From Candidatus Fermentibacterota bacterium (GTDB lineage Bacteria > JAFGKV01): a stretch of DNA of 6,952 bases. The translations under genes were made by a program, and so were the position numbers. Positions within the stretch are counted from its first letter, which is position 1. Every line of letters starts with the position of its first letter. The notes beneath the pieces are model-generated. The model had not been told where the DNA came from and ran no database searches. It saw only the letters and a program-made list of their open reading frames with translations. This document shows, piece after piece, positions 1 to 6,352 of this stretch. The DNA lies in contig JAUXFG010000184.1 of the NCBI GenBank assembly GCA_030620115.1, positions 1 through 6,952 on the forward strand. Direction: 5' to 3'.

Positions 1-22
1 CACGATGGGGTGACCCCGCTAT

Positions 23-211
23 CCCGGACTTCTCACCGGCTTTCGTGGCGAGACAGAAGAAATGGTTGTGGCTGCAAGACTTGCGACCGAGGCTCCCGCA
101 GGCGTATCCTCTGTCCCGCGGCCGACGCGGGATCGAGGAAGCTGACGGAGCGTAACGCAGCAGACAGAGCCATATCGGCTGCCGCAGCAGGAAGCTGGTG
201 AAAAGTTCGGG
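23..211 (+). repeat. Structured dispersed repeat, copy 1 (189 nt)
   Basis: This shares ordered conserved blocks with 4451-4685. The 12-base start at 23-34 is identical, 69-98 matches 4504-4533 at 27 of 30 bases, and 144-195 matches 4618-4669 at 48 of 52 bases. The two ends pair: bases 23-40 are complementary to 194-211 at 17 of 18 positions, counting two G-U pairs, with one C-A mismatch (32/202). The stem can extend by three more pairs outward (20-22 with 212-214). Inside is a 7-bp hairpin at 114-132. The copy lacks about 40 bases of extra palindromes present in copy 2. It ends six bases before the ribosome binding site of the beta-helix gene. It could be a folded 5' leader/RNA element or a miniature mobile element; the sequence alone does not decide. 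No open reading frame is shared by the two copies. Confidence 0.85.
114..132 (+). other. Internal hairpin of repeat copy 1
   Basis: The arms TCCCGCG (114-120) and CGCGGGA (126-132) form a 7-bp stem with a five-base loop. The hairpin is bracketed by CCTCTG (108-113) and TCGAGGAA (133-140). Copy 2 has the same brackets around a different stem (4591-4606), so pairing is kept while sequence is not. There is no T-run after it, so it is not an intrinsic terminator. Confidence 0.75.
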
Positions 212-216
212 ATAAT

Positions 217-226: not shown

Positions 227-2455
227 ATGACATATTCCTTCTTGCTGGTCTTGTGTCTCACGTCTGGATGTGAGACTTCTCTTCTTCCTCTGACAAACGG
301 CATGGAGATCGATCAGAGCATTCGTTTCGCCCCCGGAATACATACTCTGACCGAATCTGTCATGATCACTGGTGACAATGTTACCGTGGATTTCAACGGA
401 GCGACACTGGTTGGCCCCCGCGCGGGCGGACCTCCCGATAGTTTTATGGCAACAGCCATTATCGTGGAAGGCAAGGAAAATGTCACCATACTGAATGCCA
501 AGATCCACGGCTTCAAGGTGGGCATCTATGCCAAGGGATGTCGCAACCTCTCCATACGAGGCTGTGATCTCTCATCCAACTTCAGGCAGCACCTTCGATC
601 AACTCCCGATCAGGAAGTGGCCTCCGACTGGTTGTGGCCACATCACAATGACAAGAACGAGTGGATGGAGCAGCATGGCGCGGGCATCTATCTCGACCGG
701 TGCGTTCATGCGGAGATTGCCGGAAACATGGGGCACAACTCACAAAACGGCATCATACTCTCCCGAACGGACAGCTCGTTTGTGTATGACAACGATATGT
801 CGTTCAACTCGGGCTGGGGCCTTGCTTTGTGGCGCTCCAGCTACAACGAGATCTCCCACAACAGATTCGACTATTGCGTTCGAGGATACAGCCATGGTGT
901 CTATCACCGTGGTCAGGACTCAGCGGGCATCCTCGTTTTCGAGCAGTGTTGCCACAACATGTTTGCCCATAACAGCGCCACCCATGGTGGCGACGGTTTC
1001 TTCCTGTACGCTGGTCACGAGACCACCGAACGCACCGGAGAGGGTGGATCGAATCATAATGTCCTCTACCTGAACGACTTCTCTCATGCGGTGGCCAATG
1101 GCATCGAAGCCACCTTCTCAGATGGGAATGTCTTCGCTGAGAATATGCTCCATGAGTGCGACTACGGGATCTGGGCAGGATACTCCTACAATACCACTGT
1201 GGTGGGGAACCACATCACGCGTTCCCTCCGCGCCGGTGTTGCCATCGAACATGGGCACAACAACCTGATTGAGGGCAACCGGTTCGAATCCAACAAGACC
1301 GGGATTCTATTGTGGTCATACCCCAATGAGCAGTTCGAGAGCATGCCTTATGGGCAGAAACAGAACACCAAATCAGAGCGCTACCTCATTGCTCGGAACC
1401 GATTTCTTGGAGATGACACCGCACTTCGATTCCACAACTCAGTCGACATCCTGGTGGAACAAAACGAATTCCAAGATCACGATCTTGTGCTCAACCTTCG
1501 GTCCGACTGCCCAGGCTTCGTGTTCCGCAACAACAATATTCTAAGCGCCGAGAAATTCGCTGAGAACCAAGGTGAAGTGCCAATCCAACCTCTTCAGAAC
1601 TACCTCGGTACACTTGAGGTGAGTGGCAATGTCGTGCTTCCCTTGGAGCCTGTGATCAAACCGTATCCCATTACTTGGGAGACACGTACGCAGCACGTGG
1701 ATATATCTCTGGTCCATGGGACCATGTTTGCATTCCTCCCGGATAACGCACGCCGGGGTCGTGAGACCATGATCGTGGACGAATGGGGCCCCATTGACTA
1801 CAAGACCCTGAAGCTTTTCCCGAGCCACGTATCTGCCTGGGGAGACGCGCGCTTCTTTCTCGTAGGCCCGGACATGCCGTTCCGGCTCGAGTCCAGTGGG
1901 GAAAAGGCGAATGTTGACCCGCAAGAGGGGCGCGTCCCTGCGAGACTCACGGTGACGGCTCACCAGCGTGGTCTCTCGGAGATCTCGTTCATCGCCCATA
2001 TGGGCGATGAGGCGCTGGAAGCAACGGCCACTTTGTTCAAATCCACATGGAAGGTGACGTATGTTGCATGGAGCGATACCGCCGAGGGACCGATCCCGGC
2101 CCGATGGGATGAGATCATCGCGCAACCATCAATGGCCACGATGGAGACCGAAACACTCGATCTCAACTGGAAAGGCAAGGCGCCGGCTGACAACGTCCCG
2201 GCAGACTACTTCGCCACCATGGCCGAGACTATCATCGACTTACCGGAAGGCGATTACGAAATCCACACGATTTCCGACGACGGAGTCCGGGTGATGATTG
2301 ACAAGGCCGTTGTTCTCGAGAACTGGACGCAGCACGCTCCGGAGGAAGATATGAGCCATGTGGCGCTTTCGGGTGGTTCTCATGAGATCCGTGTAGAACA
2401 CTTCCAGATTGACGGATATTCCCGGCTGAAATTCTGGCTGGAGCGACGCCCGTGA
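227..2455 (+). CDS. Secreted right-handed beta-helix protein with C-terminal PA14-like domain
   Basis: The product is 742 residues from the ATG at 227, chosen for its GGAGG site; an ATG at 215 would add four residues. Residues 5-15 form a short hydrophobic stretch ending LTSGC, a weak lipobox, so a lipoprotein or exported protein is likely. There is no basic residue before it, which is unusual. Residues ~45-440 are parallel beta-helix repeats (NosD/pectate-lyase fold), with recurrent patterns such as GI.L..., NRF and N.I followed by Asn/His turns. Residues ~490-605 look like beta-sandwich linker domains, with VDEWGP at 517-522. Residues ~640-738 resemble PA14, a carbohydrate-binding fold, with the typical SDDGVRVMID at 683-692 and GSHEIRVEHFQ at 717-727. 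Beta-helix proteins of this kind often bind or cleave polysaccharides. I cannot identify catalytic residues, so the reaction is unknown. Its stop overlaps the start of the GH2-like gene, which implies a shared carbohydrate-related role. Confidence 0.85.
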   Translation: MTYSFLLVLCLTSGCETSLLPLTNGMEIDQSIRFAPGIHTLTESVMITGDNVTVDFNGATLVGPRAGGPPDSFMATAIIVEGKENVTILNAKIHGFKVGIYAKGCRNLSIRGCDLSSNFRQHLRSTPDQEVASDWLWPHHNDKNEWMEQHGAGIYLDRCVHAEIAGNMGHNSQNGIILSRTDSSFVYDNDMSFNSGWGLALWRSSYNEISHNRFDYCVRGYSHGVYHRGQDSAGILVFEQCCHNMFAHNSATHGGDGFFLYAGHETTERTGEGGSNHNVLYLNDFSHAVANGIEATFSDGNVFAENMLHECDYGIWAGYSYNTTVVGNHITRSLRAGVAIEHGHNNLIEGNRFESNKTGILLWSYPNEQFESMPYGQKQNTKSERYLIARNRFLGDDTALRFHNSVDILVEQNEFQDHDLVLNLRSDCPGFVFRNNNILSAEKFAENQGEVPIQPLQNYLGTLEVSGNVVLPLEPVIKPYPITWETRTQHVDISLVHGTMFAFLPDNARRGRETMIVDEWGPIDYKTLKLFPSHVSAWGDARFFLVGPDMPFRLESSGEKANVDPQEGRVPARLTVTAHQRGLSEISFIAHMGDEALEATATLFKSTWKVTYVAWSDTAEGPIPARWDEIIAQPSMATMETETLDLNWKGKAPADNVPADYFATMAETIIDLPEGDYEIHTISDDGVRVMIDKAVVLENWTQHAPEEDMSHVALSGGSHEIRVEHFQIDGYSRLKFWLERRP
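2440..2443 (+). promoter_or_regulatory. Ribosome binding site of the GH2-like gene, inside the preceding gene
   Basis: GGAG lies eight bases before the GTG at 2452, within the last codons of the beta-helix gene. It supports the GTG start. The reading frame is open upstream only back to a stop at 2410-2412, and that interval holds no ATG or GTG. Confidence 0.6.
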
Positions 2456-4347
2456 ACGAGTCTTCCAAGAAACGCCTGGAAGATCAACTCATAACCAGAA
2501 GCTTCTCCCGCCCCGGACCAAATGCCTGGGTACGAGTCGAAGCCGCAGCCACCGCCGCCGAGGTCCGGCTCAACGGACATATGGTCGGTTCCCACCTCGG
2601 TGCATGGACACCATTCGAATTCGACCTCACGCCATGGTTACAGGCCGAGAATATCCTTGAAGTTCACTGCCGGCATGTGGATCACACGACCAACGGCTTC
2701 TTGCCACGCATCGGTGTCCAATGGGTGGGGACTCGAAATGTAGAGATCAGATCCTCTCCAACCGGACCAAGACCTGCGGTAGCCCAGCGGTCCGTCGTAC
2801 GCGGGCAGCAACTCCTTGTGGACGGCAGACCATTTCGCGTCCGCGGCATCCTGCACTGGGGTTACTATCCCGAATTGCCGGGCCCGTGGCCTTCAGAGGA
2901 GCAGATGCAAGATGAGATCGCCTACATCAAGTCGCTGGGCTTCAATCTCATCAAGTTCTGCCTCTGGGTCCCCCCGGAGCGATACTACCAGCTCTGCGAC
3001 GATATGGAGATGCTCGTGTGGCAGGAGTATCCCGTTTGGGACCGGCCGATGGATGACTGGAGCATTCTCGGTGAGTATGAGGATTTCTTCCGTTATGACA
3101 GGCCGTATCCTTGTGTCATCCTCCGCTCATTGACCTGCGAGAACGACCATCTTGACCCGAATATCGGGGGAGCACTGGTGAAACGCGCTCGGGAGCTCAT
3201 CCCCGGCTGTATTCTCATCGATAACTCCGGCTGGCTCTGCGCTGAGCGAACCGGAGATTTCCACGACGAGCATGTCTACCTGAACAACATGCAATGGGTG
3301 CACTACGGGAAACGTATGCGCGGCAAGCTGTCGAAACCATTGCTTCTCGGCGAGACCATGTGCGTTGACTCGAAACCGGATGGTCCCCATAACACAGCCC
3401 TTGCGGTCCGCCGATTTCAGATCGAAACCCTGGCGAGAGATCTACCTGATGCCGGCTATGTGGTAACGGTATTGCGCGATATCCCCTATGTGACGCCGGG
3501 AATCTTCAGCATCCATGGGAAACCGAAGTATACACCTGAGCAGTGGGCATGGCATGGCGACCAACTCGGAGAACCGCGACGCATCCATGATCTTGGAGCA
3601 CCGGTGATCGGCCCACGCAAAGGCCAATGGAAGTGCCCGGAGCACACGTGGTGGAGTCCGGTGGTCAATGTCCTTACCCTGGATCTGCCTGCGGATCTCA
3701 TTGAGCGCGAATGCGTGTTCGACCTCCTTTCGGGTCGTGTGCTCGAGCGCTGTGAGGGTACGCGAGTATTGGTAGAAGTCGTGGATCTCCATGACGGAAG
3801 GAACATCTCGCATCCATTGGTCATCGAGTTCGAGACCCAAGGTCAATACCGGCTGGTCTCAGCCTTCAGACACGACACTCCTGCAGGCCGCGAGCTTTCG
3901 CAGATCCTCAGTCAGCGCGCGGGACCGGCGCCTGAGATCGGTCCACTAATAGGAGATGCGCTGGTACTGGAGGACTGGGAGCTCTCCTTTGATGGAAACA
4001 CCTGGTTTCCCGTGAAATGCGATACCCAATTGGTCAATCGTGGGCGGAATGTATTCGAGGGCCGCGCCATGTTCCGCACCAAGCTGCGGTACCCCGGCGG
4101 AACTATGACCCTGCGATGCGAAGCAGTGGCAGACTACTACGAAATGCATCTTGATGGCGCCAAGTTTGCCGAAGCCGGCAATCCGACCGGCACATGGGAT
4201 AGCGGTCGATTCACCCCCATAGATTTCGACTTCACCTTCCCCCAAGGGACGTACGAAATCCTCGTCAAGGTCCGCGATTGGACAGCCTCCGGCGCCATGG
4301 TGGGCCCCGTGTATCTGGCCAAAGATCTCACCCAGCGCATCTTTTGA
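2452..4347 (+). CDS. Glycoside hydrolase family 2-like protein (beta-galactosidase/glucuronidase superfamily)
   Basis: The product is 631 residues with a GTG start; GTGA overlaps the upstream stop by four bases, so translation is probably coupled. Residues ~25-75 match the later part of a GH2 sugar-binding jelly roll (AEVRLNG at 36-42, TPFEFDLT at 53-60). Residues ~120-370 are a TIM barrel: VDGRPFRVRGILHWG at 123-137, then DEIAYIKSLGFNLIKF at 154-169. YPCVILRSLTCEN places the acid/base at Glu230, and KPLLLGET places the nucleophile at Glu301. The Asn that normally precedes the acid/base in this clan is Cys229 here. Residues ~505-625 look like a second, complete jelly-roll carbohydrate-binding domain. 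The immunoglobulin-like domain II of typical GH2 enzymes appears missing, the first jelly roll is short, and no signal peptide is visible. It probably hydrolyses a beta-glycoside. The substrate is unknown, and a non-catalytic role is possible. Confidence 0.85.
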   Translation: MNESSKKRLEDQLITRSFSRPGPNAWVRVEAAATAAEVRLNGHMVGSHLGAWTPFEFDLTPWLQAENILEVHCRHVDHTTNGFLPRIGVQWVGTRNVEIRSSPTGPRPAVAQRSVVRGQQLLVDGRPFRVRGILHWGYYPELPGPWPSEEQMQDEIAYIKSLGFNLIKFCLWVPPERYYQLCDDMEMLVWQEYPVWDRPMDDWSILGEYEDFFRYDRPYPCVILRSLTCENDHLDPNIGGALVKRARELIPGCILIDNSGWLCAERTGDFHDEHVYLNNMQWVHYGKRMRGKLSKPLLLGETMCVDSKPDGPHNTALAVRRFQIETLARDLPDAGYVVTVLRDIPYVTPGIFSIHGKPKYTPEQWAWHGDQLGEPRRIHDLGAPVIGPRKGQWKCPEHTWWSPVVNVLTLDLPADLIERECVFDLLSGRVLERCEGTRVLVEVVDLHDGRNISHPLVIEFETQGQYRLVSAFRHDTPAGRELSQILSQRAGPAPEIGPLIGDALVLEDWELSFDGNTWFPVKCDTQLVNRGRNVFEGRAMFRTKLRYPGGTMTLRCEAVADYYEMHLDGAKFAEAGNPTGTWDSGRFTPIDFDFTFPQGTYEILVKVRDWTASGAMVGPVYLAKDLTQRIF

Positions 4348-4450
4348 TCCAACTCTTCGCGCTTCCGCCTGGGTCTGCCCTTCCGCTCCCACCTCTTTAG
4401 ATTATCGGATTTGATATTCCAGATCGTTTATTCCAAATTCATCCGGTTAG
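4348..4450 (+). other. Non-coding stretch between the GH2-like gene and repeat copy 2
   Basis: This is the first part of a 364-base gap. I see no RNA gene, no hairpin followed by a T-run, and no convincing promoter boxes. The stretch 4395-4440 is visibly more AT-rich than the neighbouring genes and is the likeliest place for a promoter of the FG-GAP gene, but no -35/-10 pair with normal spacing stands out. Confidence 0.4.
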
Positions 4451-4481
4451 CCCGGACTTCTCGCCGGGTTTCGAAGCGAAG

Positions 4482-4500
4482 CCCCGCGTCGGACGCGGGG
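4482..4500 (+). other. GC-rich palindrome in repeat copy 2 (site 1)
   Basis: CCCCGCGTC (4482-4490) and GACGCGGGG (4492-4500) are perfect inverted arms around one central G. As RNA this gives a 7-bp stem with a TCGGA loop. Copy 1 has no hairpin at the equivalent place (about 52-68). A very similar CCCGCG/CGCGGG stem instead occurs in copy 1 at 115-131, a different internal site. Confidence 0.75.
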
Positions 4501-4553
4501 TTCTGGCTGCAAGGCTTGCGATTGAGGCTCCCGGCTCTGTCAGGGCGTAGCCT

Positions 4554-4586
4554 GGCTCCGCCGTGGCGAAGCCCGAAGGCGGAGCC
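4554..4586 (+). other. 9-bp inverted repeat in repeat copy 2 (site 2)
   Basis: GGCTCCGCC (4554-4562) and GGCGGAGCC (4578-4586) are exact complements separated by 15 bases. Most of this unit is absent from copy 1, which goes from about base 107 straight into the conserved CCTCTG. It therefore looks like an inserted or deleted hairpin module. Confidence 0.7.
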
Positions 4587-4590
4587 TCTG

Positions 4591-4606
4591 TCCGCCAGCT
4601 GGCGGA
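4591..4606 (+). other. Perfect 16-base palindrome in repeat copy 2 (site 3)
   Basis: TCCGCCAGCTGGCGGA is its own reverse complement. It sits between CCTCTG (4585-4590) and TCGAGGAA (4607-4614), exactly where copy 1 has its own hairpin with different stem bases. The conserved pairing argues that structure matters at this point. Confidence 0.75.
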
Positions 4607-4697
4607 TCGAGGAATCCGACAGAGCGTAGCGCAGCAGATAGAGCCATATCGGCTGTCGCAGCAGGAAGCCCGCGAGAAATTCGGGGTAGGGGCAAGT

Positions 4698-4711: not shown

Positions 4712-6352
4712 ATGAGAACTCCGCCATTGATCGTTCTCTTACTCACAAGCATCCTGATCGGCAGCTCCTCTCCGGGCGTCTTGTTTACCCTCGCATCCCC
4801 CAACGAGCAAGAGGAAGGGCGGTTCGGCTGGGCAGTATCTGGTGTCGCCGATGTGAACAGCGATGGTGTGAATGACATTCTCGTAGGGGCATACGGAGAA
4901 GGACTTGGCACGGGCCTTGATCGAGCAGGCAGGGTCTATGTGTTCAGCGGCACTTCCGGTGAGATCCTCACCACACTCGTGTCTCCGAACCCCGAATCAT
5001 ATGGATACTTCGGATTCTCGGGGGTCGGGATAGGTGATGTAGATGGTGACGGCTCCGGGGATCTTGCCATTGGAGCTGTATTCGAAGATCCTGATCTGAA
5101 CTCTGTGAACGCCGGAAAGGTCTACATTGCGAGTGGCGTGAGCGGTGCAGTGTTGAGGGTATTGGTTTCCCCAAATCAGGAGACCTGCGGTCACTTCGGC
5201 TATTCGCTCGACAATACAGGAGATGTGGATGGTGACGGTTTTGATGACGTGGTGATCGGAGCTTTTTGCGAAGATCCGGGAGCCAGGCCCCTCAATGCCG
5301 GTCGAGCCTATGTTTTTGGCGGGAATGATGGTTCTCTCATCCACAGTTTGGTCTCGCCAGAGGAAGAAGAAGAAGGTCGATTTGGAACCGTAGTTTCTGG
5401 GGTCGGAGACGTCAACGGCGACGGCTTTGATGATCTGCTCGTCGGCGCACCTGATGCAAGCCCCGCTGAGGCAGGGAGGGTGTACATCTTCAGTGGTCAG
5501 ACCGGACATCTGCTCCATACCCTCCATTCTCCCAATGAAGAAGCATGCGGTCGTTTTGGTGGCTCGGTGTGCCGTGCAGGCGATGTGGACATCGACGGTT
5601 TCGCCGATATCGCAGTCAGTGCACCAGGAGAAGGCGGCGGTGGAAGGGTTTACGTCTTTGGCGGTCTATCGGGGGACGTGCTTCGCACGCTGGTCAATCC
5701 TTTTGGTGATGCCGGCTTTGCCTATTTCGGTCGCTCCATAGCCTACGCCGGTGATGTCAACAGCGATGGCTATCCTGACATCATGATCAGCGTGCTTGCG
5801 GAGGAAGGTCGGCAGTTGTGGGGAGGCGTGGTATGCGTCTTCAGCGGACAGACAGCGGACACACTCTGTACTCTGACGTCACCAGCCGGCGGTTTGAACA
5901 GCAGCGGCTTTGGCTGGACATTGTCCCCTATCGGAGACCAGGACGGAGACGGTTCTGATGACGTGGTGATCGGAGCGTATAGTGAGAGCCCCGGCATAAG
6001 CCCATATGACGCGGGACGAGTATACGTGTTCACTTGCCAGCCAAGTCCGGCGTCACATGGGGACAACATCGGTTCCTCTGCGCTGGAAATCATTGGTCCG
6101 ATTCCAAACCCAACGACGGGGGCCGTGCGTCTTGGCCTTCGATTTGCGGGAAAGGAACACGAGAGGATCACGATAGACCTGTATGACGCCATGGGAAGGT
6201 TGGTCGACACGGTCCTGAGTGAGACGTCGCAAGGCGGGGACTACATCGATCTGCATTGGACCCCGGACGAACAACTCCCCTCAGGAGCCTATTGGTGGTG
6301 CGCTACCTCTGGCGGCAGGACGACCCGGAAGCGAATGATAATCATGCGCTAG
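4712..6352 (+). CDS. Exported seven-bladed FG-GAP (integrin-alpha-like) beta-propeller with C-terminal sorting domain
   Basis: The product is 546 residues. Residues 1-20 are a signal peptide: one Arg, a hydrophobic core, then GSSS. Seven FG-GAP repeats follow, each with a calcium-binding DxDxDG-type loop, at residues 47-55, 109-117, 171-179, 233-241, 291-299, 348-356 and 409-417, a period of 57-62 residues. Most blades also carry an L.SPN.E..G.FG motif and end in AGRVYVFSG. Seven repeats match a complete closed propeller like that of integrin alpha chains. Blade 6 is the least regular, with DIMISV instead of the usual VIGA. Residues ~461-546 (IPNPTTGAVRLGL, then LYDAMGRLV and SGAYWW) resemble type IX sorting/FlgD-like C-terminal domains, which implies surface display or secretion across an outer membrane. 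Adhesion or ligand binding is the likely role; the ligand is unknown. The gene stands alone, directly after repeat copy 2. Confidence 0.9.
   Translation: MRTPPLIVLLLTSILIGSSSPGVLFTLASPNEQEEGRFGWAVSGVADVNSDGVNDILVGAYGEGLGTGLDRAGRVYVFSGTSGEILTTLVSPNPESYGYFGFSGVGIGDVDGDGSGDLAIGAVFEDPDLNSVNAGKVYIASGVSGAVLRVLVSPNQETCGHFGYSLDNTGDVDGDGFDDVVIGAFCEDPGARPLNAGRAYVFGGNDGSLIHSLVSPEEEEEGRFGTVVSGVGDVNGDGFDDLLVGAPDASPAEAGRVYIFSGQTGHLLHTLHSPNEEACGRFGGSVCRAGDVDIDGFADIAVSAPGEGGGGRVYVFGGLSGDVLRTLVNPFGDAGFAYFGRSIAYAGDVNSDGYPDIMISVLAEEGRQLWGGVVCVFSGQTADTLCTLTSPAGGLNSSGFGWTLSPIGDQDGDGSDDVVIGAYSESPGISPYDAGRVYVFTCQPSPASHGDNIGSSALEIIGPIPNPTTGAVRLGLRFAGKEHERITIDLYDAMGRLVDTVLSETSQGGDYIDLHWTPDEQLPSGAYWWCATSGGRTTRKRMIIMR

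Follow-up and report, generated by a model that had tools for sequence, protein, structure and literature searches.

Correia/NEMIS, ERIC and RUP are short non-coding multicopy repeats with terminal inverted repeats, stem-loops and a terminal TA (PMC2229807). The motif YTAR is known as the duplication motif of IS5 (PMC10359306). The window analyzed here, a stretch of 6,952 nucleotides from a 4.1-Mb MAG, carries two copies of an element that belong to a dispersed intergenic family of about 183 bp. The family very probably represents a lineage-specific, non-coding, MITE-like transposable element which inserted at YTAR, was presumably moved in trans by an IS5-like DDE transposase and now seems mostly to be decaying. 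One of the two readings offered in an earlier note on the two copies was a small mobile element whose terminal inverted repeats match; this reading is supported by copies dispersed in their hundreds, direct repeats of YTAR at the borders, empty sites, nesting and intergenic placement. The features of both copies in the window are the following.

19 to 22, no strand: left border 4-mer CTAT of copy 1, a putative decayed target duplication (read from the sequence and the family-wide YTAR borders)
23 to 211, forward strand: copy 1 of the element, full length, CCCG...CGGG, with an extra tip hairpin (nhmmer family match at window positions 20-214 and whole-length hairpin)
23 to 44, forward strand: left terminal inverted repeat of copy 1 (terminal helix paired across 43 copies)
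114 to 132, no strand: exchangeable tip module TCCCGCGGCCGACGCGGGA of copy 1, which replaces the CGATACG-type tip of most other copies
190 to 211, forward strand: right terminal inverted repeat of copy 1 (same 25-pair helix; fold)
212 to 215, no strand: right border 4-mer ATAA of copy 1, a putative decayed target duplication (read as for 19 to 22)
4447 to 4450, no strand: left border TTAG of copy 2 (sequence reading)
4451 to 4685, forward strand: copy 2 of the element, made larger by three inserts (fold z -5.4; alignment row for window positions 4448-4687)
4482 to 4500, no strand: palindromic module CCCCGCGTCGGACGCGGGG in place of part of the left arm of copy 2 (alignment)
4530 to 4571, no strand: insert of about 42 bases, CCCGGCTCTGTCAGGGCGTAGCCTGGCTCCGCCGTGGCGAAG, in copy 2, also present in other copies (alignment)
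4591 to 4606, no strand: palindromic module TCCGCCAGCTGGCGGA at the tip of copy 2 (sample-wide module counts)
4686 to 4689, no strand: right border GTAG of copy 2, identical to the left border in three of four bases (sequence reading)

Both copies folded far beyond the expectation from dinucleotide shuffles, with -109.9 kcal/mol (z -9.4) for copy 1 and -131.3 for copy 2; in either case none of 200 shuffles was as good. Folding of copy 1 and of the family consensus gave a single hairpin spanning the whole length, and the insert-enlarged copy 2 folded with side branches. In copy 1 the border TAT (20-22) together with the left repeat (23-44) completes a 25-pair terminal helix. The pairing of the arms described in the earlier note (23-40 with 194-211 and 4451-4468 with 4669-4685) holds, but the stem is not confined to these arms and continues over a full-length imperfect palindrome. 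The change from A35-T199 to G4463-C4673 is a genuine paired change at homologous positions. The second one put forward, from C40-G194 to G4468-C4669, compares positions that are not homologous: the homologue of G194 is G4668, which is still a G, and the register in copy 2 was off by one because C4465 is bulged.

Downstream (3') of copy 1 the window encodes a NosD/beta-helix protein with a PA14 domain (227-2455) and a glycoside-hydrolase-2-like protein (2452-4347), two genes that overlap by 4 bases and likely form an operon. The gene at 4712-6352 encodes a protein with FG-GAP repeats whose C-terminus resembles a secretion tail (Por_Secre_tail slightly under the cut-off). Another FG-GAP-like gene comes after a Y1 transposase in L054.

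The element had been taken for a two-copy one, a count that the genome does not support. Dozens of strong matches came up when the whole genome was searched, and the end motif CCCGVACTTCTCRCCRG gave 549 matches with at most two mismatches versus 7 for the reversed control, and 776 versus 109 with three mismatches. The 1.70 Mb that were read (41% of the genome) contained 204 loci, 97 of them full length, which scaled by end motifs corresponds to about 330 loci and about 157 full copies genome-wide. With 200 of the 204 loci in non-coding DNA, as judged by a simple hexamer gene finder, the family is short, non-coding, dispersed and high in copy number, as expected of a MITE. It makes up 1.6% of the sampled contigs and 7.8% of their non-coding DNA, densities that lean high as these contigs were picked partly for having matches. 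Copies share 76% identity on average in pairwise comparison and differ from the consensus by a median of 16%, so the family looks old; its three main subfamilies are separated by a distance of 24%. In L009, L011, L013 and L014, and in reverse in L003 and L004, one element sits inside another, always at the same position; as this composite is found at several loci, it appears to have been mobilized or copied as one unit. Solo hairpins of 48-50 bp, in which the left end is almost directly joined to the right end, also recur (e.g., L043:6006-6053 and L045:12447-12494) and are presumably internal deletions.

The borders of the element proper, CCCG...CGGG, were defined from 147 end pairs. TA stood on both sides in 81 of them, in the frame YTAR-CCCG...CGGG-YTAR with mostly Y before and R after. 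In 22 of the 81 the left 4-mer was identical to the right one, and in 9 it was its reverse complement. Associations were seen between the outer left and the inner right base (Fisher p 0.010) and between the inner left and the outer right base (Fisher p 0.0028), both in the direct sense, which is the prediction of a 4-bp duplication and not of a palindromic end. A 4-bp YTAR target duplication, as in an IS5-derived MITE, is therefore likely; with only 22 of 81 identical, a 2-bp TA duplication is a less likely alternative. Empty sites were found in paralogous DNA. The copy at L038:896-1078 lies inside a larger host element as GGGC-GTAG-[CCCGG...CCGGG]-GTAG-CCTGG, and a relative of this host at L039 is uninterrupted, with 212 bases aligned and no gap. 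Further empty sites were seen for L044:14751 (against L118) and L161:7455 (against L080 and L048), and a weaker case for L094:15409 (paralogue in L063). Nested copies that occupy the CGAG/CAAG position in their host elements, e.g., L060:13777, add to these cases.

The element is built of terminal inverted repeats of about 22-25 bp (CCCGVACTTCTCRCCRGCTTTCG) within an imperfect palindrome of about 183 bp. It inserted at YTAR sites, those 4 bp probably being duplicated, and was presumably mobilized in trans by an IS5-like DDE transposase that prefers YTAR as its target; the copies now appear mostly to decay in place. An IS5-like enzyme is suggested because YTAR is the duplication motif of IS5, and it may by now be lost, unassembled or too divergent. 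Genome-wide searches with PF13358, PF01609, PF13586 and PF01797 gave no autonomous partner, and the MAG may lack the partner gene. No IS630-type DDE_3 gene of the kind that serves RUP scored above the cut-off in the genome (best E 0.19), nor did any DDE_Tnp_1_2 gene. DDE_Tnp_1 had nine matches in the genome, none of them bracketed by element ends, so ends shared with an IS5-family element were not found. No transposase lay between paired ends in the portion of the genome that was read (41%), and the genes scanned within the ten wide end pairs of the sample were ordinary host genes. Four Y1_Tnp genes are present. End motifs lie near three of them without bracketing the gene, and two (L051:907-1872 and L052:1471-2445) are RAYT-like, encoding 321-324 aa with a C-terminal DnaA-like helix-turn-helix.

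The element family appears to be lineage-specific, a new representative of a well-known type of element. Two genomes from the same bacterial family gave background motif counts only and no real match. The exact 18-mer core had 7 matches in about 85,000 species genomes (257 Gb, a collection that may leave out the genome of the window and its nearest relatives), in unrelated taxa and at about the chance number. This core was absent from the viral contigs searched, the plasmid and phage collections searched held no element match, and in none of the sequence collections searched was the element sequence matched.

Pairing along the hairpin was assessed in an alignment of 43 copies. In the full-length hairpin 88.8% of the cells were paired and 32 of 70 pairs had two-sided changes, values that none of 500 shuffles reached. 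In the terminal 25-pair helix 93.6% of the cells were paired; the terminal arms vary and keep their pairing, the opposite of what the earlier note had named as speaking against it. The covariation score was 0.207 versus 0.150 in shuffles (0 of 500) and 0.05-0.07 in slid registers, and 260 double changes were observed versus 136 +- 10 when whole 3' halves were shuffled between copies; relatedness inflates such tests, as subfamilies have changes in common. The three subfamily consensuses alone are separated by seven Watson-Crick double changes, and paired changes reach far inside the arms, beyond the 25-pair ends (helices 4-6). Paired subfamily changes may reflect either a need for matching ends and arms in mobilization or a quasi-palindrome correction templated by the opposite arm.

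The placement of the copies relative to genes was also determined. Among confidently oriented copies in the 1.70 Mb, 33 were co-oriented with tandem genes and 29 anti-oriented. A sense-orientation bias, considered as a sign of mRNA function, had been seen when the sample was smaller (0.99 Mb) and the copies were oriented less reliably (52:20), and it vanished at 1.70 Mb. Exactly at a stop codon start 16 of the 97 full copies, and 13.5% of the non-coding YTAR sites are stop codons (p 0.37). Since stop codons contain YTAR, random use of YTAR outside genes predicts the same share, and the stop codon was rejected as a special target. The 12 sense versus 4 antisense copies at stop codons (p 0.08) are too few for a claim.

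The other reading in the earlier note was selection on an RNA fold, which would make the element a structured cis-regulatory RNA acting as a leader or 3'-UTR element. The fold of copy 1 has z -9.4 on the forward strand versus -4.8 on the reverse strand, all of 60 copies fold better on the forward strand, the arms covary, and each window copy sits just upstream of a gene start. Selection on a forward-strand RNA would, however, tolerate G-U and not A-C pairs, and variants present in at most three copies comprised 40 G-U versus 51 A-C, without any preference for G-U. The subfamily consensuses had seemed to favor G-U because their pairs came from the forward-strand fold, which selects G-U; in a neutrally scored register the G-U and A-C columns were near balance (12:8 or 20:15), and the asymmetry was discarded as a sign of RNA selection. 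We see no strand-specific signal in the neutral register or in the rare variants. With the orientation to tandem genes unbiased in the larger sample and nothing at the gathering threshold in Rfam 15 (best 18.6 bits against 37), so that no riboswitch or sRNA identity was matched, a regulatory RNA is very improbable. Hardly more plausible is a REPIN-like element whose mobility depends on the RAYT-type Y1 transposases encoded here, a view to which the two Y1 genes with a DnaA-C-like tail, the end motifs flanking three of the four and the inverted pairs forming one hairpin, as REPINs do (PMC3116915), would lend themselves. The ends are not conserved hairpins themselves, lack the conserved GTAG/GGAG head and have Y, not G, before TAR, and the motifs near the Y1 genes do not form pairs around them; at the given motif density a motif in these 3.3-kb loci is unsurprising. 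The element borders, moreover, carry direct repeats. To our knowledge, direct border repeats are not expected of Y1 enzymes.

Compatible with the mobile-element reading is the view that template switching in the quasi-palindrome during replication, and not selection, makes the paired changes. The covariation well inside the arms (helices 4-6), the seven double changes among the three subfamily consensuses and the replacement of arm segments by perfect palindromic modules agree with it, but individual copies retain many single-sided changes and mismatches, and we regard it as possible though doubtful. A feature that the transposable-element reading does not account for is the set of exchangeable modules of 16-20 bp inside the arms and tips. 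They are perfect palindromes that take the place of pieces of an arm or of the tip, at more than one position. Of 112 CCCGCG-type palindromes in the sample, 90 fall within elements, whereas TCCGCCAGCTGGCGGA was counted 30 times in elements and at 46 intergenic sites outside them in the 1.70 Mb, in the manner of a micro-repeat of its own. Its non-element sites (e.g., L031:496, L045:15889 and L063:6025) place this 16-bp perfect palindrome in several sequence contexts. At L093:10061-10245 and L120:12528-12718 an inner CAAGGCTTG has grown to the near-perfect 28-bp palindrome TCCCGCACCCAAAGCTTTGGGTGCGGGA. More speculatively, and rather unlikely in our estimate, the whole palindrome may be kept self-complementary during amplification and may grow and change by swapping perfect 16-20-bp palindromic modules into arms and tip, modules that would also spread independently within the genome.

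Paired changes between two copies thus need not signal a regulatory RNA, as a palindromic mobile element has the same signature. For the matching of arms in palindromic elements, the estimated 150 or so full copies in this one genome are a good natural data set, and the family also suits the study of small palindromes invading larger ones.

In build and behavior the MITE-like element resembles prokaryotic MITEs generally (PMC10969869). It shares with Correia/NEMIS, ERIC and RUP the short, non-coding form, inverted ends, long stem-loops, TA termini and many copies (PMC2229807); unlike these, its borders fit a 4-bp YTAR rather than only TA, it pairs over the whole length, carries exchangeable hairpin modules and has an unmatched sequence. 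RUP has IS630-Spn1 as its partner (PMC2229807), whereas the element is without a known one. As in the REPINs of RAYT, two inverted ends form one hairpin at high copy number in one genome (PMC3116915), but the element is 183 bp long, has no conserved hairpin per end, shows YTAR direct repeats and is not tightly linked to Y1 genes. No transposase lies inside the element and no IS5-type gene with element ends was found in the genome, in contrast to IS5, with which the element has its target and duplication motif YTAR in common (PMC10359306).
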